Below are positions 28,361-52,655 of a DNA stretch of 64,000 nucleotides, one piece after another (positions within the stretch are counted from its first letter, which is position 1; every line of letters starts with the position of its first letter). The notes under the pieces are model-generated. The model did no database searches. It had not been told where the DNA came from and saw nothing but the letters and a program-made list of their open reading frames with translations. Origin of the DNA: Pseudanabaena sp. PCC 7367 (GTDB lineage: Bacteria; Cyanobacteriota; Cyanobacteriia; Pseudanabaenales; Pseudanabaenaceae). The stretch lies in contig NC_019701.1 in the NCBI RefSeq assembly GCF_000317065.1, positions 1,550,001 to 1,614,000 on the forward strand, in the 5' to 3' direction. A program made the position numbers and the translations under genes.

Positions 28361-31300
28361 ATGCGCTGTTACTTATTGCTGGCCTTAGCAACATTCACGG
28401 GTCTGAGCCTAGCCTATGAAAAAGATCTGCAAGCACAGGTCACACCAGACGGAACTACCGCCACCACAGTGGATGGCAATCAGATCAATCCAGTTGGCTC
28501 CGGCACTGTCAATGGTAATAACCTCTTCCACAGCTTTGACCAATTCAACGTACCCAGTAGCGGTGTCATTTTCGGCACCGATGGTAGCAGTGTTGATGGC
28601 AACAGCATTCAAAATATTTTAAATCGGGTCACTGGCGGTGATCCCTCCAGTATCTTTGGCGCGATCCAGAGTAGCGGCGCTTTCCCCAATGCCAATTTGT
28701 ATTTGCTTAACCCCAATGGGATTATTTTTGGCGCAGGTGCCAGCCTGGATATTGGCGGTTCATTTCATGCCAGCACCGCCACGTCACTTTTGTTTGACAG
28801 CGAGCAGATTTTCAGGGCGATCGCTGATGGCGTATTCCCGTTTGGTGATCCCAAAGCATTACGGTTTGGCATTACAGAACCAGCGGCAATCATTAACCAG
28901 GGCAATTTAGCAGCCAGTAATAATTTAAGCCTGACCGGTGGCACGGTGATCAGCAGTGGCAATCTCAGCGCCAATGGCACCGTAGCGATCGCGGCAGCAC
29001 CAGGTAACAGCGCGATCGAGTTGCGATCGCCAAATGCAGTGTTGGGTTTAACAATTCTGCCGGATGCGGTGGGAAATGAGTGGCAGGGCACGATCGCTGA
29101 TATTCCCCAATTGGCCAGACAGTTAACGGGCACAAGTAATCCTGAAGCCGATGAGGTAGTCGTAAATCCTGATGGTTCCTTAGCTTTAGTAGAAATCAGT
29201 GAAGGCTTAACCAGTAGCTTTAATGAAGAAACCGAGCAGTTTGTTACCACGGGCAATTATGCGATCGCGCCGGGCGATGTAGCGATCAAAAATGCCAATG
29301 CGGCAACGGTGCAAGTTGAGGCAGACCAGGATATTGCTGCCCTGGTGCCGGATTTAGAAACCTCCGGCGATCTCTCCTTGAATGCTGGCAATGAATTGGT
29401 CTTGCGTGATTCGGCGGAAACGGCTTCAACAGTAAGGGCAGGTGGCGATCTCACCCTCTCGGCTAAAAATGGCATTGATATTCTGGCGTTGAACCATGCC
29501 GCCAGCCGGATCGAAAGTGGTGGCGATCTCACGTTGCAAAGTGATGGCATTATTTCCGGCGATGCGATCTATTTCAGTATTGGGGATTTTATTCTCAAGC
29601 CGATTACTCCTGGCAGTGTCACTAATTTTATTAGCCTCTATGATCCAATTATTCGATCGGCTGGCAATGTAGACTTGGCTGGAGATTATTCGGGGACTTC
29701 ATTACTCGTCGAAGCGGCAGGTAGCATTACCACCGATGGCATTGAAATTACAGGGCCTGATTTATTCTCACCAGAGCCAGCTTTAGTAAATAATTGGGCT
29801 TTGATTCTGCGGGCAGGAGTTTTACCTGGTTCAACAACTTCATTCCCAGTGGTGGAAGGCGGCTCTAATGTTACTGAAGCCCCTTCAGATGGGCTTGGGA
29901 ATGTTACCGTTGATGGCCCTATTAGTATTATTCCTGGGATTGGTGAAGATAGCCTGGTTGAAATTACCGCCACAGGTAATGTTGAGATAAATGACCAAAT
30001 TCAAATTATCTCTGCTTTTGGTACTACTAACCTGCTTGGAATTACGGCTGAAGGGAATGTTGATATCAATGCGCTGATCGATGCCAGGGGGGTAGACACC
30101 ACGATCACCAGTAACACTGGCACAATCAACACTGATGTGGTGATCACCCATGCCAACTCCAACGGTGGCGATCAGATTTTTTCTGCACCGCTGGGGATTA
30201 CTACCGGCGATCTCGATTCCAGTAGTCTTACCAGTGGGATAGCTGGAGATATATTCATTGATACGCCTGGGTCAGTTAATGCAGTTAGTATTACTGCCGA
30301 GGCTAATGAAGGTACGGCAGGCAATGTTTTAATTGGTTTGGTTGACCAGCCTAGTTTTTTAATTTCGGGGATTATTTCAACCCAGAACAGTTCCGCTGGC
30401 GATGCCGGTGGGGTGTCAATTCAAGTTGATGATAGTGTTAATATTACCGAAATTATTGCTAGTTCTACTAATCTTGGGCTTGGTGGCAACGTCACGATCG
30501 ATGCGGGAGGAGTTGTACAAATTCCTGGTGGTATTACTACTACAGGACATGAGTTTGATGCAGGTGATGTTAGCATTACCACGAATAGCAGCATCCTGAC
30601 TGGTGATATTACTACCACATTAGAAGATGGTGATTCACCTGGTTATAGCGCTGGAAATATTAACCTGATCGCTACAGGCAACGATGATATTAATGTAGGT
30701 AATCTCAATGCCAGTGTTTATGGTGGTGTAATTGGTTTTGCTGGCAATGCCGGCAATGTGGCGATCGATAGTGATAGTGGTGATATCTCCACGAATAACA
30801 TTCTCACTATCTCTGAGTTTGCTAATGGTGGTGGGGTTAACTTAACTGGCCAGAATGTTAATACTGGCTATATTACTAATGCCTTCTCCGAGAATACCAG
30901 CACTAGCCCAGTAATTATTAGTGCCAGTGGTGAAGTGAATACTGGCAAGATTGATACTTCAGCTAATATTAATAGTGGTGCGATCGAAATTACTGGCAGC
31001 GATGTAACTGTTAATGGAGATTTACTGACTGCATCGTCAAATATAAGTGGTGATATCACCGTTAATGCCACTGGTGATATTAATGTGAATGGCGATATTG
31101 ATACCTTTGGCTCCTATAGTGGTAGTGCTGGTGATGTCAGTATATCTACCACATCCAGCAGTAGCGTTACAGTTACAGGTAACATTTATGCCTATGGCTA
31201 TGAAGGTGCTGCCAGCGGGGATGTGACCATTACTGCTTTGGGGAATGGTGATATTAATGTTAACAATATAAACACTAATGCCGCTCAAGGCTCTTCCCCC

Positions 31301-33697
31301 ATGAGTGGTACTGCTGGTGATGTTACGGTTAATAGCAGTACGGGGAGCATTGTTACTGGCAATATTTCCGCAGTAGCTGATTCGAATCAAAGTGGATCGA
31401 TTAGCTTATCTGGTCAGAATATAACCGTTGGCGATATTAACGAGCTACCCGTTTCTGCCGACAGTAGTAACGTTTCCGTAGTTATTTCGGCGATCAATAA
31501 TGTCAGTGCTGGTGATATTTTTACTAGAGCATTTTTTGATGGCGGTGATGTTGATATCTCCGGTAACAATATTCAAGTTGGTCTGATCAATACGACTGGT
31601 TCCGATTTTGGTGGCGATGTCAATATTGATGGCAACACGATCATATTAGATTCGATCCGAACCGAGTCTACCAATGGCTTTGGCGGTGATGTGGATATTG
31701 TCTTTACCGATTTCTTCCGGGCGATCGGCTTTTTCACTGGTTTTAATGGCACGGATGCCAGTATTTCTACGGATGGCTCTGATGCTGGTGGTTCGGTTAG
31801 TATCGTCCGCGATCCCCTGGTAACCGGCGTAGATGATTTCCTGGTTGGCGATAGTGGGATTGTGAGCGAGAGCGGTAATGGCACAGTCAGCGCGATCGTC
31901 ACCAGCAACGCTAACCAGATCCTGACTGCCACGATTCCGGTTGAACAAATCCAGGGCAATATTCTGATTCGGAATAGCCTACCAAATGATCCCCCTCCCA
32001 CCGATCCACCTCCAACCGATCCGCCCCTAACCGATCCGCCTCCCACCGATCCGCCTCCCACCGATCCGCCTCCCACCGATCCGCCTCCCACACCAACGCC
32101 CACACCGACTCCTACGCCCACACCGACTCCTACGCCCACGCCGACTCCTACGACCACGCCAACACCAACTCCTACACCAACGCCAACACCGACTCCCACA
32201 CCAACGCCTACACCTACTCCCACACCAACGCCTACACCCACCCCGGCCCCCACACCGACTCCTGCACCCAATCCTGCGCCTGCACCTTCGCCTACACGAT
32301 CCCAGGAACAGGATGTAGTTGACTCCACCCTGATCACTCTCGATCCTTCACTCCAGCAGCCTGAGGCCAGTCTCGATCGCCAGGCTAAGATTGCGCTGAT
32401 TGACTTTAAGCGCTCCGAGGCCGATCGCTTTCTAGCGAATGGTCAGCTAGATGCCGCCCTGATTGCGATCGAATCCGGCTATAAATCAGAGCTGGAAGTA
32501 TATACCGGCGAGAGCCTACCAGCTAATATTGTGGGGCTGAATGATGGCCAGGAAATCATCACCGAAGCCTCAAATATTACTAAGAGTGTGACGGCGATCG
32601 TTTATCCGATTATTTTGGAAGATCGGCTCGAAATCCTGGTGATTCCGCCCAAGCGACCGGAAGACGACAATGCCGACAAGGATAAATCAATCTCCCCTGA
32701 TCAACTGGGTAAGCCATTCCTGGTGACGGTGCGAGGTGTCTCTGAATCAGATATGAATACGGTTGTGACTGACTTTGCAATCAACCTGCGTGATCCTAGT
32801 TCCGACGACTATTTGCGCCAATCGCAACAGCTCTATGATTGGATTATGCGACCAATCCACGATCGACTGCAAGCAGAGGAAGTCGAAACGATCGTGTTTG
32901 TGATGGATAGTGGCTTGCGGGTAATCCCACCTGCTGCCTTCCATGATGGTAGTAGCTTCTTAGCGGATCAATATGCATCCGCCACAATTCCGGCCTTAAG
33001 TGTTAGCCAAGCAATCCTGAAGGAAAGAGATAGCAAAAACAGTCGGATTCTGGCGATGGGTCTGACGGAATCTGTGGATGGATTTGCCGCCCTTCCTGCG
33101 GTAGAAACTGAAGTGGAAACCATTACCGAAGATGTATTATCGGGAAGTTTCTTCCTGAATGAACCATTCACCGTTGGCAACCTCCAATCGCAACGTGGTC
33201 AGGCAAAATATGGCATTATCCATCTGGCCACCCATGCTCGATTCACTTCTTCGCAAGAAGAGGGCGCATTTATTCAATTCTGGGATCGCCGCCTGAATAT
33301 TAAAGCGATCGGCGAGTTGGGGCTAGATGATCCAACCGTGGAAATGCTGACCCTCAGCGCTTGTCAAACTGCCGTGGGTGAAAGTCTTGGCCTGGGTGGA
33401 TTGGCGATCAAGAAGGGGGTTAAGAGCGTATTGGCTTCCCTGTGGCCGGTTGAGGATGCTGGCACCGCACCGCTGATGATTAATTTCTATAGCCGGTGGG
33501 AGGATTCGCGGAGTAAGGCGATCGCCCTGCGTGAATCTCAGCAATCGATCCTGAGTGGTAGGGTCAGAATCGAAAATGGCCGAGCAGTTGGTATTCCTGG
33601 TCTGGATGATGTGATTTTGCCCGATGAAGGAGCCCAAATCGATCTTTCCCATCCCTACTATTGGTCTTCGTTTATTTTGGTTGGCAACTGGCTCTAA
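28361..33697 (+). CDS. Filamentous-haemagglutinin-type secreted adhesin with C-terminal CHAT protease domain
   Basis: A 1778-residue protein. A signal peptide (about 1-25) precedes a two-partner-secretion (TPS) domain (about 27-160) with [38 protein letters not shown] and [21 protein letters not shown] long beta-helix-like region of G-D-V/I-containing short repeats extends to about 1205. A DPPPT then PTPT linker (about 1210-1313) leads to a helical segment and a CHAT domain (about 1480-1778). The CHAT catalytic dyad is visible: His1625 in HLATHARF and Cys1668 in [10 protein letters not shown]. The architecture implies a surface or exported fibre carrying a caspase-like protease. No TpsB/FhaC-type outer-membrane partner is encoded in this window. 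Substrate and trigger are unknown. Confidence 0.92.
31988..32299 (+). repeat. Low-complexity Pro/Thr-coding tandem repeat
   Basis: Tandem CC-rich units coding first Asp-Pro-Pro-Pro-Thr (15-nt unit) and then Pro-Thr dipeptides, ending in Ala-Pro and Asn-Pro variants. It forms a stiff spacer between the adhesin and protease parts of the encoded protein and is a likely site of length variation. Confidence 0.95.
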
Positions 33698-33792: not shown

Positions 33793-35862
33793 CTAGGTCA
33801 GATTTTTAGGTAATACAATCTCGAAGGTAGTGCCCTGATTTAGCTTGCTTTGAATGTGAACATCGCCGTGGTGCAGACTAGTGATTTGCTCAACGATCGC
33901 CAACCCCAACCCTGCGCCTGGTGTACCGGATATGGTATCAGCATTAGTAGCCCGATAGAACTGCTCAAAAATCTTGGTTTGTTCAGCGGCAGGAATGCCA
34001 ATGCCCTGGTCAGTGACTTTGATTACAACCTGATCATGGCGATCGATTAGCTCGAATAATATGCTGCTGTTGGTAGGCGAGTACCGAGCAGCATTGCTAA
34101 GTAGCTGGAAAGTTAGTTGCTTAATCAGTTCTGGATCAAGCCGGGCACAAATAGGATGCTGTCCTATAAACCGATATTCAACTTGATGATTCTGCTGGTT
34201 GCGCTGCCATTCAGCAATAATACTCTGGTAGATATCTTCTAGATTTAGTGGTACTGGCGAAAAATCGTACTCAGCTGATTCGGTGCGATTGATGGTTAGG
34301 GCATCTTCGATTACCCGGATGATGCGATTGACATTCTCTTTGATTTGGCTGAATTTACGCGATCGCCTGATTGCTGGTAATTGGTCATAGCGGTTTTCTA
34401 AGGCCTCGCTGAGCAGCATGATCAAGGAAAGCGGTGTGCGTAATTCATGGGAGATGGTAGAAATGAGCTGAGACTTAAGCTGGCTAATTTCTTTCTCTTT
34501 GGCCAGAGCCTGTTTTGCGATATGTTCAGCCTTTTTGCGTTCTTGGACTTCTATTTGCAGTTGAATCAGGGTATTTTCTAGCTCCTGCGATCGCTGGTGT
34601 GCCTGTTTGAGTAATTTGGCTTGTTGGAGGGCAATGCTAAATTGCTCAGCTATTTGATTGAGGAAGTTGATTTCTGATTGCTGCCATTGACGCGACCCAG
34701 AGTTTTGATAGGCTCCTAGCAATCCCCACAGCTTCTGGCCAGAGAAAATCGGCGCGATCGCATAGGCTCTGATCTGGAAATATTTCAGCATTCGGACATG
34801 GCATTCTGAATGATCTACGGTGTAGATATCAGCAACGGCAAAGGTTTCATGATTGGCATAGCGCCCCCCTTGGGTCTTTTGCAAATAGGAATCTTCCCAC
34901 TTCGTGTTGATATTTTTCTTGTTGTTGATATTTTGGTGCACCAATGGCAACCAATCACGATCGACCGATTCGGCCACAAACTCACCGCTCCAATCGGGGT
35001 TAAAGCGATAAATCGCCACCCGATCGGCATTCAGCAATTGCCTGACTTCGTGGGTGGTGGTGGCAAAGATTTCCTCAACTTCCAGCGATCGGCGAATTTT
35101 ATTAATCACAGTGGCGGCAGCTTTTTCCCGTGCCACTGCCTGGGCAACCGATAGCGAAAGGTATTGCGATTGTTGGTTCAGGCGCTCCATTGCCTCTGCC
35201 TGCTGTAGGGCTACGCTCAAATGAGCCGCAATTTGCTGCACAAACTCAATTTCCGTATCTTGCCACTGACGCGAAGCAGCGCAATGGTGGATACACAATA
35301 GCCCCCACAATTCATTACCCTGATGTAGCGGTACCACCAGGTTGGCTTTTACTTGAAACCGAGCCAAAATCTCAATATGACAATTTTTGAGTCCCAGCGC
35401 ATATATATCAGCCGCAGCCCAAACTCTGCCCTGTTGATAATAATGAGCATAATTATGGCCGAAGCAATGATCATTAATTTCAGCGCCTAAGGCTGAATGA
35501 TAGGGTGGTAGTACATCTTCAGCTACAAATCGACCGACATTATAGTTAGCGCCAGGATCGAAGCGATATATGGTTACCCGATCGACATTGAGTAGTTGTC
35601 TTACCTCGGTAGCAGTTGAATCAAAAATAGTCTGTAGTTCTAATGACTCTCTAATTTTGGTCACCACCGATAGGAGCGCCTTTTGTTGCAGGAGCTGAAT
35701 TGGCACTGTAATTGGCCACGTAGTTGGCTCAATAATTGGCTTATTAGTTGGCTCTGTAGTTTCCTGGGGGGTAGGGTTGGCTATGGCTGCAAGTTGCGAT
35801 CGTAATTTAGAAATTTCCTGCTGCAGCTTTTGGAAATCCTTGTCACTGGGGGCATTATTCAT
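33793..35862 (-). CDS. Cyanobacteriochrome-type sensor histidine kinase with two bilin-binding GAF domains
   Basis: A 689-residue soluble kinase. GAF1 (about 68-220) holds a DXCF motif (Asp131-His-Cys133-Phe134) and the canonical bilin-attachment pair Cys161-His162 in LKNCHIEILARFQVKANLVV, the pattern of two-Cys blue/green-type cyanobacteriochromes. GAF2 (about 250-415) has QGGRYANHETFAVADIY and Cys354-His355 in SECHVRMLKYFQ, the pattern of red/green-type domains. A coiled coil (about 415-460) joins HisKA with phospho-acceptor His472 (STISHELRTPLS) and a HATPase_c domain with GIGIPAAEQTKIFEQFYR and GLGLAIVEQI. No response regulator is adjacent. It faces the adhesin-CHAT gene, stops 95 bp apart. 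Spectral type is inferred from motifs only. Confidence 0.9.
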   Translation of the reverse strand: MNNAPSDKDFQKLQQEISKLRSQLAAIANPTPQETTEPTNKPIIEPTTWPITVPIQLLQQKALLSVVTKIRESLELQTIFDSTATEVRQLLNVDRVTIYRFDPGANYNVGRFVAEDVLPPYHSALGAEINDHCFGHNYAHYYQQGRVWAAADIYALGLKNCHIEILARFQVKANLVVPLHQGNELWGLLCIHHCAASRQWQDTEIEFVQQIAAHLSVALQQAEAMERLNQQSQYLSLSVAQAVAREKAAATVINKIRRSLEVEEIFATTTHEVRQLLNADRVAIYRFNPDWSGEFVAESVDRDWLPLVHQNINNKKNINTKWEDSYLQKTQGGRYANHETFAVADIYTVDHSECHVRMLKYFQIRAYAIAPIFSGQKLWGLLGAYQNSGSRQWQQSEINFLNQIAEQFSIALQQAKLLKQAHQRSQELENTLIQLQIEVQERKKAEHIAKQALAKEKEISQLKSQLISTISHELRTPLSLIMLLSEALENRYDQLPAIRRSRKFSQIKENVNRIIRVIEDALTINRTESAEYDFSPVPLNLEDIYQSIIAEWQRNQQNHQVEYRFIGQHPICARLDPELIKQLTFQLLSNAARYSPTNSSILFELIDRHDQVVIKVTDQGIGIPAAEQTKIFEQFYRATNADTISGTPGAGLGLAIVEQITSLHHGDVHIQSKLNQGTTFEIVLPKNLT

Positions 35863-36152: not shown

Positions 36153-37202
36153 CTAAATTAAATCCCAGTTCAAAGGCGTTCCTCTGGCGATATTACAAGC
36201 AGCGGTTTTACCAAGAAATTGATCTATGTGCTTTGGGGCCAGACCATAACCAGGGCGAATCGATCGAATATTTTGGGTAGTAAATGTTTCGCCAGCTTTG
36301 ATGTCCTCAGTCACATAGAGCGATCGCCGAAAAACCCGCGAACCTTGTTCGGCTGCCAACGAGCCATAGACAACCTGGCCTAAAGCCTGCCAGGCGCGTT
36401 CACTTTCGCTCACCAATTGCTGCATTTCTGCTACTTCCAGCGAGAAAGCTGCATCAACGCCCCCGTCAGCTCTAGAGAGGGTGAAATGTTTTTCAATCAG
36501 GGTTGCGCCCAAGGCCACACTGGCCACCGCTACACCAATTCCCAGGGTATGATCGGAAAGCCCCACCTGTACACCGAAAAGTTCGCGCAGATGAGGAATT
36601 GTGAGCAGGTTTGAATTGGTAGGAAGGGAAGGATAGGTGCTGGTGCATTTAAGCAAAATCAAATCACGCCCGCCAGCATTGCGGAAGGCACAGACCATCT
36701 CATCCATTTCGGCGATCGTGGCCATGCCAGTTGAAATAATCGTTGGTTTACCAGTGCTGGCAACTTTCTGAATCAGGGCTAGATCGATATTCTCAAAAGA
36801 GGCGATCTTATAACAAGGCACGTTGATAGCTTCTAGAAAGTCAACGGCAGAAGGATCAAAGGGGCTACTAAAACCAATCATGCCCAATTCGCGGCAACGC
36901 TTGAAAATTGGTTCGTGCCATTCCCAGGGCGTATGGGCTTTTTGATAAAGCTGATAGAGGGAATTCCCTTGCCATAAACTCTGAGGATCATCAATCAAGA
37001 ATTCACCGGTATCCAGATTAATCGTCATGGTATCGGCAGTATAGGTTTGCAGCTTCAGGGCATGGGCTCCCGACTTGGCCGCTGCCTCAACGATCGCCAA
37101 AGCTCGCTCTAGCGAATGATTATGATTGCCAGACATTTCCGCCACCACCAGGGGAGGATGTTGAGAGCCAATTTTATGGCCTTGGATCACGATTTCCTGC
37201 AT
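36153..37202 (-). CDS. pseI: Pseudaminic acid synthase (NeuB/PseI family)
   Basis: A 349-residue enzyme that condenses a 6-carbon aminosugar with phosphoenolpyruvate to make a nine-carbon sialic-acid-like sugar. The TIM barrel begins VVAEMSGNHNHSLERALAIV and continues GAHALKLQTYTADTMT, GFSSPFDPSAVDFLEAINVP, YKIASFENIDLALIQKVAS, STGMATIAEMDEMV, KCTSTYPSLPTNSNL and GLSDHTLGIGVAVASVALGA. A C-terminal SAF (antifreeze-like) domain follows (about 285-349, RRSLYVTEDIKAGETFT). SGNHNHSLERAL and LKLQTYTADT favour PseI over NeuB or LegI. No other pseudaminate genes are in the window. Confidence 0.9.
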   Translation of the reverse strand: MQEIVIQGHKIGSQHPPLVVAEMSGNHNHSLERALAIVEAAAKSGAHALKLQTYTADTMTINLDTGEFLIDDPQSLWQGNSLYQLYQKAHTPWEWHEPIFKRCRELGMIGFSSPFDPSAVDFLEAINVPCYKIASFENIDLALIQKVASTGKPTIISTGMATIAEMDEMVCAFRNAGGRDLILLKCTSTYPSLPTNSNLLTIPHLRELFGVQVGLSDHTLGIGVAVASVALGATLIEKHFTLSRADGGVDAAFSLEVAEMQQLVSESERAWQALGQVVYGSLAAEQGSRVFRRSLYVTEDIKAGETFTTQNIRSIRPGYGLAPKHIDQFLGKTAACNIARGTPLNWDLI

Positions 37203-42633: not shown

Positions 42634-45600
42634 TTATTGATTGTCCTGAGCAATTAACTTCTTCAACGTGTCCACCAGGGTTTTCTCTTGGTAGGGCTTA
42701 GTAAAATATTCCGTTGCGCCCAGGTTCATCGCCAATTGACGATGCTTATCTCCACTCCGCGAAGTCAGCATCACGATCGGCAACTGATCATAACCACGAT
42801 CGGCACGTAGATTCGCCAATAGTCCATAGCCATCCAGACGTGGCATTTCAATGTCACTCACGATCGCATCAACCTTGAGCCCAGCCCGCAGCTTGCTCAA
42901 AGCATCTTCACCATCCTTGGCCTGTTCGGTGTGAAACCCTGCCCTACCCAGAGTCAATGCTAGATAGCGGCGCACATTCACCGAATCATCGATTACCAGC
43001 ACAGCGGTGCGACTTGGTTTAGGAGTAGCTGGGGTGGGAGTCGTTTCCTGGGGTTGAGGTTGTGCTACTTGGCCTTGCTCTTGCTCTAAAGCAGGCATAA
43101 TTTGCCGCTCATCGGCCGCTTCTGCCGCAACTTCGATTGGTTCCGGTTGCAGCCAATTGAGAATCTCTTGGGGGTTGAGTAGGGGCACTGCCTGACCACT
43201 GCCAGAAATAATACAACCGCTAAAGCACTTAGGCAGAGGAATATCGCTTTCCACATGGCGAATGCTGGCATCCTGTTCACCCCAGCAACAATCGACCGCG
43301 ATCGCCACCATTTCCTGGCCAATTTGGCAAATCACCATCGCCGGAGCCTTGGCAAAGGGTTTGTCCTGGGCATGGCTATCATACAAACCGCGATTGAAGT
43401 GGAGATAATTATTTAGATCGATCGTGGCAATTGGTTCTGGGTGACCAGACCATTTAAACTGTTGTCGATCGGTTTCTGGGGTTTGGGTGTTTTGCCCTTG
43501 TGCATCTTCTGTGGGAGCAATCTCATTTCCCTCAGCTTCATTAGATTCGTTAGGTTCATTAATCTGAGTGAGCGTTGGTTGGGTTAAAACTAGCTGCTCT
43601 GGTTCATAGGGCACAATTTCTTTAATAATTGCTGTCGGCATCGCCATAAACATATTATTGGCTTCAATCAACAGGGTTTGCACCGAGGCCAGGGTATTAG
43701 TGAAGGTGATCGTAAAGGTGCTGCCCAGTCCTTCTTTGGTATCAGCTTTGATCTCAGCACCAATTTGCTTGAGGTTGGTGCGTACCACATCCATCCCCAC
43801 ACCGCGACCAGACAGAGAAGTTACCTTTTCGGCGGTACTAAAACCGGGTTCAAAAATAACCGTGAGTAGTTTTTCCTGGGGAATTTCATCTACTTGATCC
43901 CCATCCATATTTGCGGCGATCGCTGCCTGGCGGACTTTCTCACGGATTTTGTTGATATTAATGCCGCGCCCATCATCGCCGATCGTAATTGTGGTGGTAT
44001 TGTTCTCGCTGACTGCCCTAATGAATATTTTGCCCGTATCTGGCTTGTTGTAATGAATGCGGGTGCGCCGATCTTCAATGCCGTGGTCAAAACAGTTGCG
44101 CACAAGATGATTGAGTGGATCGGTGAGTGCCTCTAGGATCGCCCGATCGATCAGCAGATCGCCCCCTTCGACTTCTAATTCCACCTGCTTACCATGTTGC
44201 AATGAAAGACTGCGCAACATGCGTGGGAATCTGCTTACAATATCCGAAAGCGGCCGCATCCGTGCCTGAATGATTTTAGTTTGTAGTTGTTTAAACGACC
44301 TGCCCAGATCGCTGGCTCCTTGTTCTGCCTCTGCCAAACTGAGATTAATATCTTCTTTAACTTCTTCCAGCTTCACGATCGTCTCGATGATGCTGGCCAC
44401 CAGGGTATGCAGTTCCCCATAGCGATCCATTTCTAAGCGATCGAATTCTGCGGTATAGTTTTCTGCATCGTTGGATTCTGCTTCTAAATCAGCACCGCTA
44501 TCATTAGCTTGACCTATTTCACTTGCTTGCGCTAATTGCTCTGCTTGATCAAGGCTGAAATTAGCTGCCGGGCGGTCTAGGTCTAATAGGACTGACGGTG
44601 TATTGCTGCTCTCATGTCTATTATTGATTAAACTGAGCTTGTCATAGAGGGCATGGACAGATACATCAGATTCATCCAGTTCTTGAATCCGTTGGGATAA
44701 GACCGCATATAGTTCGCGCAGGCGACGCAATTGTGATTCCAGGATATTGCGCTCAACCGTAATTTGATCGGATAGATCATTCATCTCCTCCAATCGACTG
44801 ATCGGTAGGCGGATGCTGGTTTCTTTGAGATAAACCGATACCAATTCAGTTTTTGATTCCAGTTTGGATTGCAAGATTGCCGCCGCATTTTCGCCGTCCT
44901 TACTGGCATCTAGATCCTCAAATAGATCGAGGAGAGTGTCGGCCACCAATGAGGATTCTGGCGATTCAGAAGCAGTGGTCGGGCTGTCTTCTTCGCTTTC
45001 ATTCACATAGGCAGAGAAAAAGTCAGTGCGCTTATGCTTGGGCTTGGTTGATGCTGAAGTTGATGGCGAAGCTGCTGCTGTGATTTCTGGTGGCCGATCG
45101 GCTGACTCCAAATCATCCCCATCATGATCATCATCCGGGGCAGCGATCGCATTGTTGGTTAAATCATCTAGATTATCACTATCATCGGTGGCAGAATCTG
45201 ATTCAGTGGTGGTGGGAACGTCAATCAAACCTGTTTCAGATCGCGCGGCACGATCGGTTGATTCGTCTGGATTAGCTAGATCTAACAAGTTGTTTGATTC
45301 CGGCCAATCTAAGGGTGAGTCATCTAGATCGATCGATAAGTCCAAATCCTCAGCATCAATCCCCTGCCATTGCTCGCCATCGCTATCTATAGCTAGATCA
45401 TTATCTAGAGCATCGATATCTAGAGCATCGATCGCCTCACTGGCGGTAATATTGGTGGCGCTGGACGCTAGATTAGGCTCAAGATTGCCGAATAAATCCT
45501 CCTCTGCCCAGGATTGGCTGGCTGGCTCAGGGATGTCCTGACGATCTGTACGATCTGTCTCTGTTACGGCGATAGAATCAGGAGCATTGGGATTAGGTTT

Positions 45601-48600
45601 AGATTGCTTGGCCTGATTAACTTCATTGCCAACATTAGCAAAGGCATCGCCAAACAGGTCATCGATCGTGTCGATCGCCGCTGGTGCTTCAGAAGCAGTG
45701 ATATCTACAGGATTGGTACTAACTTGTGAATTAACCTGTGATTCTAGCGGTAATATATTTTCTGGCTCAGGATTGCTCTCTGTCTGTGCATCATTCGAGT
45801 CGATCGGCTCACCAAATAGATTTTCAATTGTGTCGAGTGACTCAACCTCGTTTTCGGTTTCAGGATTAAGTTGATCGAATAGATCTAGAATGCTTTCCTC
45901 TTCTAGGACACTTTGGCGCTCAACGCTACTTAATTTAATATCATCAGCATCATTAATATCATTAGCATCAGTATTAGTATCAACATCTGCTAACGCTTCC
46001 TGCGATCGCTGCGGATAATTCTGGGGCAAACTTAGCTCACTGGCATCCGCGATATCGATCGGTGCGGCAGATCTATTTGTTGCTGCGGCTAGGTCAGAGC
46101 TTTCATCACCCATTTGCTCCAAATCTGCCCAAAGAGCATCGGCTTCAGTAACCGAATCTTCGTTATCAATATCTAAACTTGCAGTGCTTGCATTGCTGGA
46201 TTGGCTAGACTGTGGCTGACGGGGTAGTAATAATGTATCGCTTTCATCTTCTTCAGTCTCATCTTTTAAAGCTTCATCACTCACATTTGGCTCAGGAATA
46301 TTAGAATCTGCAACCAAAAGTGATTCATCTGTTAATTCCGGTAATTCTGGCTCGGTTGAGATAGGTGGAGTAGTGGGAGTAGCTGGGGTAACGGAAGCCA
46401 GTGGATTGGCCGTAAAAACAGTGGTTTGTTTGCTGGTGGCAAATGGATTAGTTGGCTTGCGGCGGTAGCGATCTTTTTGCTTGCCAGCGATCGCTAGGGC
46501 TGCTTCTCGTCCCAGGATGATTGTGTCATCATCTTCGTCTATCTCATCGGTCTCATTCGGATCTATCGGATCTGTTATATTTCCGTTTGTTTGCCCTACC
46601 GCATTGGTTGATGCCCTGGCTTGTAGTTGTTGAGAATTGGTGCTGGTGTTAGCGGCGGTAGTTGCAGCCGGAAGGGTATATTTACCAGTGGTCTGGCGGA
46701 TGATTTTTTCAGCATAGAGTGGCCGATCGCTCAATTCAAAGGGAGATCTGAGATCTGCGCCATAGCCAATCTCTGCCCGATCGAAGCGATTATTTGGTGC
46801 AAATGCGGCCACCGGTGTGTCAATTGCATAATCAGGTGCGATCGCAAAAACTAGGGCATCATCGCTGTCGTCTGGAGATATTTGATTCAGCTCTGTTGGG
46901 CTGATTTGATTGAGATCCTCCAATTCATCTGCTTCTGGATTGGTATTAAATCCTGCAAATAAATCATCGGCGGTGATAATATTTTGGCTTTGATCTGGGC
47001 TTTGATCTGGGCGATTATTTCGATCATAATCTGGCTCAAAATCTAAATCATTAGCATTAGCAGCAGCCTGATTCGTGCGTCGCGCCGCAATAGTTTCACG
47101 ATCGGAATCTGCCCAATCGGCCAGTCCGGCTAGTGGATTGAGGTCGCTGCTACGATCGGCATTACTTCGATTTTCTGGTTCTTGCTCTAATAAATTAGCT
47201 GGTAAATTAGCTGGCTCTGGTGACGATGATGTAGTTGCTGCGGCTTGATCGCGGTTCGGAGTTGACTCGATCGCTATTTGATCGCTTTGATTTTGATTGG
47301 TAGGTTCGGGATCGGCTTGAAGTGGAATTTCCGCCACCAAGTCAGCCAGGGTATCGGGGATGTCTGTATGTGGTGGTAGTTCAATAGGATCAGTGGATGC
47401 TTTGATAGCTTGATCTGCAATTGCATTGCTGCTTTCTTCCTCTGGCAGATTGAGATCAGGCTCTGGGTTAGTTTCTGTTAATGCTGTGGCGTTAGTTGCA
47501 CTAGTTGAAATATTTGAAATACCACTGGTTTGCTCAGGTTCCGGGGCTTCAGGCTCGCTCTGATCCGCTGCTGCGTTTACCTGACTGCGATCGCCTTGGT
47601 CAATCGATGGGTAAGCGTTATCGTTAGTTTGCCCGATTTGCTCAATTTGCTCAATTTGCTCAATTGGCGCTACCTCAAAATCTGTTACTGCTGCTGTCGG
47701 TGGCACGGGATCAACGGTTGGCTCGATCGCAATTTGATTATCTAAATCATCTTTTATGTCATCACTGTGATCATTTGTGTTATCGGCATCAGCCGTAGTT
47801 AGATCGCCGCTCGCATCTCCAAATTCTGGTAATTCGATCGTCGCTGAGTCGCTAGGGTCATAATTATCAAAAGTTGCAATCTCATCTTCGCCCCCTGGAT
47901 CAGAACTTAAATCAACCTGGTCTGCATCATGCTTATTATTAATATCATTGTCAACAGCGATCGCTGGTAAGTCTGTGTCCTGGTTGGGTGAGCCAGCAGC
48001 AATGTCCGTAAGACTAGTCAGATTGCCACTTTGATATTCTTGATTGTCCTGATTGAGCAATTCTTCCAATTCAGCAAAATCAGCTAAATCACCTAATTTA
48101 TCTAATTTATCGGAGCGATCAAGCGCATCAAAACCATCGCTCTCTTCAACAGCAACAGAATCTGCCTCTTGCTCGGCATCAAAATTGGCAGCGGCATCCA
48201 GGTCATTAATATCCTGAATATCCTGAATATCTTGAATATTTTGGGCTTCAGGATCAAAATCAGCTTCCACCTCAGCCGCATTGTCGGCATTATGCAGCGC
48301 TTCCTTGAGGCTGCTAGGTAATTCTAGTTCGCCAGGCATGGCATTGGTGTTACCGGTCAGTACCAACGCTTGCGATCGCCGCCAGGTGGATAAAGTAGTG
48401 CTAGCCAACTGGGGTATTCGATCGACTGGGATGGTATTCGCTAGATCGATTACCTGTTCGCAAAGCCGATTAAATTTGGGTAATTCCAGGATTTCGGCTA
48501 AAGCTGCCAGATCTTCGGCGGTGCTTTTCAAGCTTTCTGCCAATTCAGGATTAGACTGATGCTGCTCTAGTTGTTGCTCCAGATTGGTTAAGTATTCCTC

Positions 48601-49083
48601 CACCTCCGACTCAAACATTAAGCCAACCACATCGGCTTCATCATCTTCTTCTTCCACCACTTCGCTGTCGGCTGTCACTACCGCAACATATGCTTCTAGT
48701 TCATGTAGAATTGGCGCGGCATGATCATCAAACCACTGTTGATCGCAATTTTTCCCCTGGCGATATAGCAAGACGATCTCGCTAAGAATATCCACACTGA
48801 TCAACAGGAGCCGCTCCATATTTTCATCTATGGTGGGGCTATGGGATTTTAATAACTTAAAGGTGTCTTCCAGTTGATGAGCGCAGTGACTGAGGATGTC
48901 ATACTGCATCATTGCCGATGCGCCCTTGAGCGAATGGGCAGAACGTAGCACCCCATCAATCTTGGTGCGGAAGTCGTCTAAATTGCGATCGAGATTAACT
49001 AAACCATCGGCGATCGCATCAATATATTCCTGAGCTTCCTCAAGAAATAGGCGGCGAACTTCAAGTTCCTCATCGTGGGTCAT
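42634..49083 (-). CDS. CheA-type hybrid histidine kinase with Hpt, CheW-like and REC domains (PilL/HmpL-like)
   Basis: A 2149-residue signalling kinase. An N-terminal Hpt domain (about 1-105) carries His50 in RSAHSLKGASAMM. A second Hpt-like helical bundle without the His follows (about 150-245). Residues about 250-1430 are an acidic, Asp/Glu/Asn/Ala-rich linker predicted disordered. Then come the CheA dimerisation helices, the ATPase domain with LNHLVRNCFDHGIE, GDDGRGIN, FEPGFSTAEKVTSLSGRGVG and GLGSTFTITF, a CheW-like domain, and a REC domain (2027-2149) with phospho-acceptor Asp2077 in VSDIEMPRLDG. It controls type IV pilus motility or taxis in related systems. It lies 593 bp downstream of a chemoreceptor on the same strand. 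Confidence 0.93.
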   Translation of the reverse strand: MTHDEELEVRRLFLEEAQEYIDAIADGLVNLDRNLDDFRTKIDGVLRSAHSLKGASAMMQYDILSHCAHQLEDTFKLLKSHSPTIDENMERLLLISVDILSEIVLLYRQGKNCDQQWFDDHAAPILHELEAYVAVVTADSEVVEEEDDEADVVGLMFESEVEEYLTNLEQQLEQHQSNPELAESLKSTAEDLAALAEILELPKFNRLCEQVIDLANTIPVDRIPQLASTTLSTWRRSQALVLTGNTNAMPGELELPSSLKEALHNADNAAEVEADFDPEAQNIQDIQDIQDINDLDAAANFDAEQEADSVAVEESDGFDALDRSDKLDKLGDLADFAELEELLNQDNQEYQSGNLTSLTDIAAGSPNQDTDLPAIAVDNDINNKHDADQVDLSSDPGGEDEIATFDNYDPSDSATIELPEFGDASGDLTTADADNTNDHSDDIKDDLDNQIAIEPTVDPVPPTAAVTDFEVAPIEQIEQIEQIGQTNDNAYPSIDQGDRSQVNAAADQSEPEAPEPEQTSGISNISTSATNATALTETNPEPDLNLPEEESSNAIADQAIKASTDPIELPPHTDIPDTLADLVAEIPLQADPEPTNQNQSDQIAIESTPNRDQAAATTSSSPEPANLPANLLEQEPENRSNADRSSDLNPLAGLADWADSDRETIAARRTNQAAANANDLDFEPDYDRNNRPDQSPDQSQNIITADDLFAGFNTNPEADELEDLNQISPTELNQISPDDSDDALVFAIAPDYAIDTPVAAFAPNNRFDRAEIGYGADLRSPFELSDRPLYAEKIIRQTTGKYTLPAATTAANTSTNSQQLQARASTNAVGQTNGNITDPIDPNETDEIDEDDDTIILGREAALAIAGKQKDRYRRKPTNPFATSKQTTVFTANPLASVTPATPTTPPISTEPELPELTDESLLVADSNIPEPNVSDEALKDETEEDESDTLLLPRQPQSSQSSNASTASLDIDNEDSVTEADALWADLEQMGDESSDLAAATNRSAAPIDIADASELSLPQNYPQRSQEALADVDTNTDANDINDADDIKLSSVERQSVLEEESILDLFDQLNPETENEVESLDTIENLFGEPIDSNDAQTESNPEPENILPLESQVNSQVSTNPVDITASEAPAAIDTIDDLFGDAFANVGNEVNQAKQSKPNPNAPDSIAVTETDRTDRQDIPEPASQSWAEEDLFGNLEPNLASSATNITASEAIDALDIDALDNDLAIDSDGEQWQGIDAEDLDLSIDLDDSPLDWPESNNLLDLANPDESTDRAARSETGLIDVPTTTESDSATDDSDNLDDLTNNAIAAPDDDHDGDDLESADRPPEITAAASPSTSASTKPKHKRTDFFSAYVNESEEDSPTTASESPESSLVADTLLDLFEDLDASKDGENAAAILQSKLESKTELVSVYLKETSIRLPISRLEEMNDLSDQITVERNILESQLRRLRELYAVLSQRIQELDESDVSVHALYDKLSLINNRHESSNTPSVLLDLDRPAANFSLDQAEQLAQASEIGQANDSGADLEAESNDAENYTAEFDRLEMDRYGELHTLVASIIETIVKLEEVKEDINLSLAEAEQGASDLGRSFKQLQTKIIQARMRPLSDIVSRFPRMLRSLSLQHGKQVELEVEGGDLLIDRAILEALTDPLNHLVRNCFDHGIEDRRTRIHYNKPDTGKIFIRAVSENNTTTITIGDDGRGININKIREKVRQAAIAANMDGDQVDEIPQEKLLTVIFEPGFSTAEKVTSLSGRGVGMDVVRTNLKQIGAEIKADTKEGLGSTFTITFTNTLASVQTLLIEANNMFMAMPTAIIKEIVPYEPEQLVLTQPTLTQINEPNESNEAEGNEIAPTEDAQGQNTQTPETDRQQFKWSGHPEPIATIDLNNYLHFNRGLYDSHAQDKPFAKAPAMVICQIGQEMVAIAVDCCWGEQDASIRHVESDIPLPKCFSGCIISGSGQAVPLLNPQEILNWLQPEPIEVAAEAADERQIMPALEQEQGQVAQPQPQETTPTPATPKPSRTAVLVIDDSVNVRRYLALTLGRAGFHTEQAKDGEDALSKLRAGLKVDAIVSDIEMPRLDGYGLLANLRADRGYDQLPIVMLTSRSGDKHRQLAMNLGATEYFTKPYQEKTLVDTLKKLIAQDNQ

Positions 49084-49676: not shown

Positions 49677-52655
49677 TTATTCAACGATGAATTTGGACAT
49701 CGAATGTTGTAATTGTTCGATGTTTTGCACTGCAACCTTAAATGAATCCGAAATTTTCTTCGATGAACCAGCGGTACGCCCCGATACCTTGGCCAGATCC
49801 CGCATCAACCCCGACACACATTCCGCCGTATTAGCATGGGAGTCAGTGGTTTCTGAGATCGTGTTAATCAATTCATCAATTTGCTCTGACACAGCCACGA
49901 TCTCGGCAATGCTTTGCTTGGATTCTTCTACCAGTTGGGTACTTTCGACCACCTGGGTAGTGCCATTTTCCATCGCATTGATTACCTCACCTGTTTCTGC
50001 TTGAATGCCATTGATCAGTTGTTCGATTTCCTTGGCTGCACTGGCAGAACGCGCTGCTAACTCACCCACCTCTTCGGCGACCGACCCAAAACCAGCCCCA
50101 GCTTCCCCAGCGCGGTTAGCTTCAATCCCCGCATTGATCGCCAGGAAGTTGGTTTGCACAGATATTTCATTGATTAATGAAACCACCTTAGAAATTCGCT
50201 GGGATGATTCACCCAAGCGCTTAATCTTTTTGGCTGTGGCTGCTACGGTGGCCCGCAATCGCAAAATACTTTGCATTGTATTCTCGATCGCTTCGTTGCC
50301 ACTTGTAGCCGTAGTCATGGCATTTTTAACCGCTGTTGATGCCTCAGCACTGTTATTTTTAATCGATCGCGCCGAGATTGTCATCAGTTGCGCAGAGTTA
50401 AGGGTTTTGGTAATTTCATTGGCTTGTTTAATCGCATCGGCGGTTAATTGATTCACGGCAGTTTGGTTTTGACCGATCGATAGATCCACTTGCGCAACAA
50501 AGCCCTTGGAGTTGACAACTATTTTTTGTAAGCCATTGATCACTGCATTGAAAAACTCGGAAACACTCTTCATGTCGCCATCGGTTGATCTTGCCCGCAC
50601 GCTGAGATCGCCCCTGGCCAGCTCCCTAACATCACTCAAAATCTCAATTAAGTGTTGTTGCAGCTTTTCTTTCTCTTGCCGCTGGCGATTGGCCTCAGCT
50701 TCTTTTTGCACCAGGTTGGTTTCAATTTTGTTGACAATCAAGCCCAAACTATCGCCGGAAATCTGCACCTCACCTGCTTCAACCCCCGCCAGCCGTTGCA
50801 GCGCTTTAAACAATTTCAACACTTGCTGGTGGAGATGTTCTTTTTCCTGTTTTTGCCGTTGCAATAGGCTTTGAAACTCGGTGGCAAGATGATTAATATT
50901 GGCAGATAGGATGCCGATCTCATCTTTGCTGCTTTCTTTGAGTTTGATATTAAAATTGCCACGGGCGATCTGGCGGACTGCCTCACTGGCTTGCTTGAGT
51001 GGATCGGTAATGCTTTTGGAAGCGATCGCCGCAATTATGCCCATCAGTGCAACCAGAGCCAAACCAGCCGCAGCTAAATAGATAATAAAGTTGTCACTGA
51101 TTCCTAAGCCGCGATCGGCATTGACTAGGACTGCCCAATTTAAATCTAGTGGTGTGGTGGTGGAAGGGGTTGGTGCAAAAGCAAGGGTTTGACCGGAGGT
51201 ATTAATCCCATTTACATTTGGCTGGCTGGTGGCCAGAAGTTGGCTTAATTCTGGATAGGTGGCGGTGGCATTGGTGCCAGTTGTGCCGATTCCTTCTGCA
51301 ATTACATAACTGCCACTATCATCAATCACCGCATATTGATTGCCTGGGTTATCTACCGCATTACTGAGTGCCTCGACTGGCATTTGCACTCTTAATATCA
51401 ATGCCACTTGCTGCGCCGTCGGATTGACGATCGCCGTAGTTAAAGTGATCGCATAGCCCTGCTCGGTTTCGATTAATTCGCCAATTTGCGGCGCGTTCGC
51501 AGGAGCGGCAACAATTTGCGCCAGCATCTCCGGGGCGATCGGCAACGGGTTGATCGAATCCTTAGCCTGTGCCACCAGATTGCCATTCACATCAAACAGA
51601 GCAATACTATCAAAACTGCTAAATGCCTGGTTATACAAATCTAATCGACCTTGCAACCATTGCTTCTGCCCTGCTGAGAGAGGTTGATTGGGGCGTAAAT
51701 TACTAGACGACATCAGATTACCCAACATCTGGGTGCTGTTATATTGCTGCTGCATGAAGCTACCAACCTGACCCGCCAGGCTAGTTGCCTGCAGTTCCCT
51801 GGTTTCACCGGTTGTTTGCGCAATTTTGGTTTGATTAAGTCGATAGGCCAAAAAGCCAATTCCGGCAGCGGTTACTGCTGCAACTGCAAATGCTGAAAAA
51901 ATAAATCGTTGTTTCAAGCTCGATGGCCTGAGCGTGTCCGATTTTCTTGGTACCTGATTGCTCTGTGGCTTGCGCGTCCGGACAGATGGCTTGGCGGTAG
52001 ATTTAGTAGATTTAGATGTAGACCTTGTTGATTTCGCTCTAGTTGATTTATTTGCCCCTATTGCTACCTGAGCCGAAGTATCATCGATCGCTGCGCTTGG
52101 GTGATTGCCATTCTGCGCATAGGCTGATTGTTGTGGCTGAGCTGGTGGCTGTAAAGATTGGTGGTTAATCGGTGCGGCAGAGCCAGGTGGTGGGATTACG
52201 CCCCCCGGAGTATTAGCCATTGGTGCAATTTGGGTGGTATCGGGATCTTCGATTAGTTGATGCTCATCCACAATATTTGCGGTTTCCACCAGGCCATTGC
52301 TGCTGGTGTCACCGAGCCCATTCAAGCTACCACTGCTGAGATCCAAGCCACCACTAGTGCTACCCGTGTTGCCGGTAGTATCGGAAGCGATCGCCTCAAC
52401 TGCACTATTTTGAATTTGAGCCAACGAAGTTCTAGCGATATCCAACAAATCTGGATCGTCGGTAAGAGTTAAAACCTGTTGGTATTGCACCCGCGCATAC
52501 TCAATTTTGCCAGCCTTGCGAAAGGTGGCACCTAGCCAAATATGCAACTTTGGATTACGAGGATCTTCATACAGAAGCTCAGAAAACTGCTGCATTGCAT
52601 CCTCATACCGTCCTTCTGCATAGGCCTGTAAAGCCTGCTGATAACGGGTAGTCAT
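49677..52655 (-). CDS. Methyl-accepting chemotaxis protein with N-terminal TPR (PilJ/HmpD-like)
   Basis: A 992-residue chemoreceptor. Residues 1-85 form a TPR unit (YQQALQAYAEGRYEDAMQQF, LLYEDPRNPKLHIWLGATFR). A Ser/Thr/Lys-rich linker leads to a transmembrane helix (about 250-272, IFSAFAVAAVTAAGIGFLAY), an extracytoplasmic Cache-like sensor (about 275-520), a second helix (about 525-548), HAMP (SDP-like TDPLKQASEAVRQIARGNFN), a second HAMP-like segment and the signalling hairpin with ISVQTNFLAINAGIEANRAG and FGSVAEEVGELAARSA. It would be cognate to the CheA-type kinase 593 bp downstream. The cytosolic TPR is typical of filamentous cyanobacterial Hmp receptors. Confidence 0.92.
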   Translation of the reverse strand: MTTRYQQALQAYAEGRYEDAMQQFSELLYEDPRNPKLHIWLGATFRKAGKIEYARVQYQQVLTLTDDPDLLDIARTSLAQIQNSAVEAIASDTTGNTGSTSGGLDLSSGSLNGLGDTSSNGLVETANIVDEHQLIEDPDTTQIAPMANTPGGVIPPPGSAAPINHQSLQPPAQPQQSAYAQNGNHPSAAIDDTSAQVAIGANKSTRAKSTRSTSKSTKSTAKPSVRTRKPQSNQVPRKSDTLRPSSLKQRFIFSAFAVAAVTAAGIGFLAYRLNQTKIAQTTGETRELQATSLAGQVGSFMQQQYNSTQMLGNLMSSSNLRPNQPLSAGQKQWLQGRLDLYNQAFSSFDSIALFDVNGNLVAQAKDSINPLPIAPEMLAQIVAAPANAPQIGELIETEQGYAITLTTAIVNPTAQQVALILRVQMPVEALSNAVDNPGNQYAVIDDSGSYVIAEGIGTTGTNATATYPELSQLLATSQPNVNGINTSGQTLAFAPTPSTTTPLDLNWAVLVNADRGLGISDNFIIYLAAAGLALVALMGIIAAIASKSITDPLKQASEAVRQIARGNFNIKLKESSKDEIGILSANINHLATEFQSLLQRQKQEKEHLHQQVLKLFKALQRLAGVEAGEVQISGDSLGLIVNKIETNLVQKEAEANRQRQEKEKLQQHLIEILSDVRELARGDLSVRARSTDGDMKSVSEFFNAVINGLQKIVVNSKGFVAQVDLSIGQNQTAVNQLTADAIKQANEITKTLNSAQLMTISARSIKNNSAEASTAVKNAMTTATSGNEAIENTMQSILRLRATVAATAKKIKRLGESSQRISKVVSLINEISVQTNFLAINAGIEANRAGEAGAGFGSVAEEVGELAARSASAAKEIEQLINGIQAETGEVINAMENGTTQVVESTQLVEESKQSIAEIVAVSEQIDELINTISETTDSHANTAECVSGLMRDLAKVSGRTAGSSKKISDSFKVAVQNIEQLQHSMSKFIVE

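Follow-up and report, generated by a model that had tools for sequence, protein, structure and literature searches.

A tandem cyanobacteriochrome histidine kinase of Pseudanabaena sp. PCC 7367 with a DXCF and a red/green domain

The stretch of DNA analyzed here, referred to as the window, comprises 64,000 nucleotides of Pseudanabaena sp. PCC 7367 (contig NC_019701.1, positions 1,550,001 to 1,614,000) and carries a gene for a histidine kinase with two cyanobacteriochrome GAF domains. The gene, its parts and its two nearest neighbors are as follows, in window positions.

28361-33697, plus strand: TPS-adhesin/CHAT gene, convergent with the kinase gene and ending 95 bp from it
33793..35862, minus strand: the whole tandem cyanobacteriochrome histidine kinase gene, 689 aa
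35176..35688, minus strand: GAF1, DXCF cyanobacteriochrome domain, residues about 59-229 (Pfam GAF 75-219; PDB matches 6oap, RcaE, TePixJ; trees)
35461..35472, minus strand: DHCF motif 131-134 with the second Cys, C133, aligned with DPCF of TePixJ
35377..35382, minus strand: C161-H162, canonical bilin-attachment Cys of GAF1, in the canonical alignment column
35089..35259, minus strand: predicted continuous helix that links GAF1 to GAF2 and spans residues about 202-258 (AlphaFold2 tandem model; linker comparison)
34579..35127, minus strand: GAF2, red/green (XRG) cyanobacteriochrome domain, residues about 246-428 (PDB matches 6bhn, 3w2z, 5dfx; AlphaFold2 model)
34912..34929, minus strand: INNKKN 312-317, six-residue loop extension at the insert-Cys site, of low confidence in the model
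34882..34899, minus strand: WEDSYL 322-327, matching the WXDXXL that defines XRG domains (sequence; definition in PMC11284453)
34798..34803, minus strand: C354-H355, canonical bilin-attachment Cys of GAF2 (sequence)
34450..34683, minus strand: signaling helix between W393 of GAF2 and the phospho-acceptor His, which keeps the heptad phase (spacing 79 = 2 mod 7)
34276..34476, minus strand: HisKA, residues 463-529, phospho-acceptor H472 in SHELRTPL (Pfam, sequence)
33805..34137, minus strand: HATPase_c at residues 576-686, which include the N, G1, F and G2 boxes (Pfam, sequence)
36153-37202, minus strand: surface-sugar gene for the pseudaminic acid synthase PseI (TIGR03586, 490.9 bits against a cut-off of 340.25), 290 bp upstream of the kinase gene

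The domains of the kinase were identified in both Pfam and NCBIfam, and the Pfam E-values (two GAF stretches, 3.9e-50; HisKA, 1.6e-11; HATPase, 6.6e-25) show that their assignment is not due to chance. An initial annotation of this DNA had proposed a kinase that combines a DXCF with a red/green domain and could thus read two colour ranges. The observation of such a tandem kinase is confirmed, and the protein is real and well identified. DHCF (131-134), C161-H162, C354-H355 and QGGRY (331-335) all lie at the residues given for them, and both the domain identities and the two colour ranges, the latter as predictions, are backed by the sequence, by matches to solved structures, by an AlphaFold2 model and by trees, in which GAF1 nests among DXCF domains and GAF2 lies inside the XRG lineage.

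GAF1 matches the PDB sequences 6oap (1.2e-39), RcaE (8k9o, 3.7e-35; 7ckv, 2.7e-31) and TePixJ (3vv4, 5.9e-30). It shares with TePixJ a DXCF motif whose cysteine precedes the canonical CH cysteine by 28 residues (C133 to C161). It differs from TePixJ in possessing both phenylalanines of the trapped-twist pair, F112 in beta2 and F169 in helix alpha4, at positions occupied by V and L in TePixJ. This pair has been named for the trapped-twist tuning and photocycles of red/green and teal-DXCF domains (PMC5240096). The colours of DXCF domains vary widely, a blue/green cycle being the typical one described (PMC11284453). Of the initial proposal for GAF1, the DXCF class was upheld whereas the suggested blue/green or violet range is refined: because F112 and F169 are present, GAF1 is predicted to be a blue/teal rather than a blue/green sensor. 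GAF1 is likened to teal-DXCF domains such as Tlr1999 by its predicted colour class. Tlr1999 is reportedly a blue/teal domain.

GAF2 is most simply described by its similarity to NpR6012g4 (6bhn, 2.6e-64), AnPixJg2 (3w2z, 1.9e-59) and Slr1393g3 (2.6e-51), with which it has in common the WXDXXL motif, the CH pair, the beta2 and alpha4 phenylalanines (F295 and F362 in GAF2) and the fold, at 47-57% identity over the structural alignments. An AlphaFold2 model of the domain (pLDDT 81.6, pTM 0.80) found AnPixJg2 (3w2z) as its best Foldseek match, with a TM score of 0.84 and 53% identity. C354 follows W322 by 32 residues and D324 by 30, the same spacings as in NpR6012g4 and AnPixJg2, and the sole gap in the alignment with these two domains consists of six additional residues of GAF2 in the loop before W322. 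The initial annotation had rightly recognized a red/green type but took QGGRY, with Cys354-His355, as typical of it; the motif that defines XRG domains is WXDXXL (PMC11284453), which in GAF2 reads W322-E-D-S-Y-L327, with DSYL where the cysteine of a DXCF domain would be. Since GAF2 too has the trapped-twist pair (F295, F362), a red/green colour is predicted for it. GAF2 departs from the usual sequence at S325, which replaces the Thr that follows WED in NpR6012g4, AnPixJg2 and Slr1393g3, and at G383, which replaces an Ala and is also a Gly in the red/green Slr1393g3; the two positions affect PCB-to-PVB isomerisation (PMC11284453). A further difference from the three reference domains is that GAF2 is preceded by the inter-GAF linker of a class of DXCF/insert-Cys tandems.

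The boxes of the kinase module are intact (H472, N590, G1 at 618, F at 632, G2 at 649). In 31 of 35 non-redundant kinases, that of the window included, the HisKA His lies 51, 58, 65, 72 or 79 residues after the conserved Trp of the last GAF, and all of these spacings are 2 mod 7; the binomial P of 1e-21 for this regularity is overstated because the sequences share ancestry. The heptad phase between GAF2 and the kinase, with a spacing of 79, is clearly retained in the sequence, and from this it is argued that GAF2 serves as a working input to the kinase. An AlphaFold2 model of the tandem (pLDDT 82, pTM 0.55), in which the arrangement of the domains is uncertain, contains an unbroken helix that runs from one GAF to the other, and a second helix that leaves GAF2. 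The models were built on alignments of 8 and 19 sequences, the latter for GAF2.

The genome consists of contigs of 4.56 Mb and 0.33 Mb. PcyA is encoded on the larger (equivalog match of 316.9 bits, cut-off 206) and PebA and PebB on the smaller, so that phycocyanobilin should be available to the cell, and probably phycoerythrobilin too. The protein is very probably a soluble light-sensing histidine kinase with two chromophores, in which autophosphorylation of H472 would be set by the combined colour input. Each GAF would bind phycocyanobilin via its canonical Cys. In GAF1, C133 would add reversibly to C10 of the bilin, and the bilin would probably undergo isomerisation to phycoviolobilin, so that the dark state absorbs blue and the photoproduct teal light. 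Light-driven 15Z/15E isomerisation in either GAF would act through one continuous helical spine on the HisKA dimerisation helices, and since GAF2 adjoins the kinase, the input of GAF1 would enter through GAF2. Autophosphorylation would then depend on the colours in combination, and the phosphate would pass to an unlinked response regulator, the presumed partner. Of this model, the analysis shows the domains, motifs, fold match, heptad phase and the presence of PcyA in the genome; bilin binding, the colours, the direction of switching, the partner and the output are what we infer.

The same protein might read other colours. GAF1 could be a classic blue/green sensor like TePixJ, or a blue/orange-red one that retains PCB. 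Such a cycle would be in keeping with the diversity of DXCF domains, in which more residues than the Phe pair decide the outcome, but F112 and F169 fit the pair of the teal-DXCF photocycle and render it rather unlikely. For GAF2, the doubt lies in the loop between the beta2 Phe and the Asp, which comprises 29 residues as opposed to 19, 23 or 24 in 44 other sampled WXDXXL domains and is thus longer by 5-10 residues at the insert-Cys site; it is also the sole stretch of the model with a pLDDT below 50 (model residues 66-80). A longer loop next to W322 could alter Trp stacking, and GAF2 might then have little photoactivity, or act as a structural or fluorescent domain that does not switch, such that in practice the kinase reads blue and teal alone. 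Arguing against this possibility is the conservation of W322, D324, C354, H355 and both phenylalanines, together with the polar nature of the INNKKN extension, as expected of a surface loop. We regard a silent GAF2 as improbable and a red/green photocycle as the preferred prediction.

As the initial annotation had noted, no response regulator is encoded beside the kinase; nor is one fused to it, and the kinase is an orphan without a linked partner regulator. Elsewhere in the window, a receiver was found solely inside a CheA-type hybrid (42634-49083, minus strand; 2149 aa) with Hpt, HATPase, CheW and receiver domains and a long unannotated middle. The hybrid is adjoined by a TPR/HAMP methyl-accepting protein (49677-52655, minus strand), and together they make up a chemotaxis-like pair, some 7 kb away from the kinase gene. 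Partners do adjoin the DXCF/insert-Cys tandem kinases in the three neighborhoods checked, in contrast to the window kinase. These receiver-first kinases (L220:7796-10216, L221:2102-3871 and L222:1185-2918) overlap the tandem kinase genes and have a receiver-kinase-receiver or receiver-GAF-kinase architecture in Pfam rather than the GGDEF (c-di-GMP) output that had been suspected. Each pair is likely to form a multistep phosphorelay for near-UV/violet and blue sensing. A search of the Pseudanabaena genome for an ortholog of these partners yielded as its best match an 828-aa frame on contig C1, 50% identical over residues 159-585 and adjoined by a distinct receiver match; more than 100 such matches occur in the genome, and this frame is not a clear ortholog.

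The neighboring genes raised the question of whether light controls surface behavior. The adhesin-CHAT gene does lie tail to tail with the kinase gene, 95 bp off, as first described. Its product is a TPS-secreted protein of the filamentous-haemagglutinin type with a C-terminal CHAT protease-like domain and a long Pro/Thr repeat in between. Beyond PseI, the window contains an ABC/MlaD pair and a WD40 protein, followed by the CheA hybrid and the MCP. Control by the kinase of the adhesin-CHAT gene, or of cell-surface glycosylation linked to PseI, could be read from the proximity of the two genes, the second of them on the kinase's own strand, and from the example of other cyanobacteriochromes that govern aggregation and motility, among them SesA and Cph2, which act through c-di-GMP domains (PMC5812497). 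However, Pfam detected no c-di-GMP or DNA-binding output domain in the 689-aa kinase, the convergent genes do not share a promoter, and homologs of adhesin-CHAT or PseI were absent beside related kinases at the 12 loci examined. Most related kinases have differing surroundings, and several, at five loci, carry or adjoin receivers. Promoter and terminator scans gave fewer matches than scans of shuffled sequences and were uninformative. Light control of the adhesin-CHAT gene is not borne out, and a role of the kinase in surface behavior by way of either neighbor is very improbable.

Tandem DXCF and XRG kinases are of an ordinary kind present in many cyanobacterial genomes. Matches to the tandem were obtained in 328 of 390 genomes of the class, many of them covering GAF1 and GAF2 in full at 40-61% identity. 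The second domain of these tandems takes three forms: WXDXXL; insert-Cys, with a loop of 38-64 residues that contains a Cys, often as CXXK/R; and Trp-less, mostly IXDXXL. In the IXDXXL class, which accounts for 17 of 29 Trp-less XRG domains, Ile replaces the Trp and the canonical CH is kept; as a second GAF it follows a DXCF domain in kinases that come from several families and measure about 650-740 aa (seven loci), and a limited search of the cyanobacteriochrome literature did not find it described. Within the Pseudanabaena genome the sensor part has its closest relative in a 717-aa kinase with two DXCF GAFs. This paralog (L051, G000:C2:3656953-3660651) belongs to another kinase subtype, with a HEINN H-box. 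Own-genome searches turned up no further red/green domain closely related to GAF2, and just one match of 75 bases to related DNA was obtained among plasmids.

What sets the window kinase apart is the company that its GAF2 keeps. GAF1 appears to group, with moderate support, with the first GAFs of DXCF/insert-Cys tandems, to which it is up to 70% identical (local support 0.79-0.93; 93/6). The inter-GAF linker points to the same kinship more strongly: it has 82 residues in the window kinase and in seven DXCF/insert-Cys tandems, in which it is 56-65% identical, as opposed to mostly 92, and otherwise 71, 78 or 103, residues in other adjacent DXCF/WXDXXL pairs. The seven are hybrid kinases of about 1100-1450 aa, much larger than the 689-aa protein of the window, and their GAF2 contains a loop of 40-41 residues with the insert Cys and a CY motif, neither of which is found in the window's GAF2, whose 29-residue loop lacks Cys and with it the CXXR/K second cysteine. 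Among the 82-residue-linker tandems sampled, that of the window alone has a red/green second domain.

A red/green domain at a place where the closest relatives have a near-UV/violet type suggests, as far as can be read from sequences, a change of colour class in place, the direction of which the trees leave undecided. GAF2 falls inside a clade of XRG domains (98/93) and, in the best tree, outside the supported insert-Cys clade (97/86), but AU tests rejected neither a grouping with insert-Cys domains (p-AU 0.355) nor one with AnPixJ/NpR6012 (p-AU 0.425). Residues 246-298 most resemble the insert-Cys domains of the sister tandems (mean identity 0.69, versus 0.53 to red/green domains), residues D324-H355 are nearer to the red/green ones (0.55 versus 0.43), and the end of GAF2 is neutral. 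Recombination inside GAF2 was considered as the source of this mosaic; functional constraint alone could yield the same pattern. The data would fit loss of the insert in place, ancestry in place or recombination alike, and the AU tests do not choose among them. Since the same GAF1 and 82-residue linker are otherwise sampled with insert-Cys domains, GAF2 might be a natural intermediate or a revertant between red/green and insert-Cys cyanobacteriochromes that has kept a short, Cys-less loop extension at the site of insertion, a reading that we put forward tentatively, as possible rather than probable. Cho et al. 2017 sought a single-Cys 'DTY(/H)L and CH' sensor as an evolutionary intermediate (PMC5240096), and if the reading is true, GAF2 would be of the kind that they asked for.

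Two colour ranges in one protein are also a property of the four-colour photoreceptors Cph2 and IflA. In IflA, a phytochrome-type module is paired with a GAF of the cyanobacteriochrome class. Cph2 has the same combination (PMC5812497) and so differs from the window kinase, both GAFs of which are cyanobacteriochromes. The predicted dark states of the kinase absorb blue and red and its predicted photoproducts teal and green, in an organism whose genome also encodes PebA and PebB for phycoerythrobilin. Tandem sensors of this sort are numerous, and in this one the single evolutionary detail of specialist value is the red/green domain in an insert-Cys frame, a possible test case for colour change. 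Its value is comparative: one two-GAF frame, with insert-Cys in the relatives and red/green here, provides a clean pair that bears on how a cyanobacteriochrome shifts its colour class without breaking the coupling to the kinase, and on whether the loop extension is a step toward a second cysteine or the relic of one.
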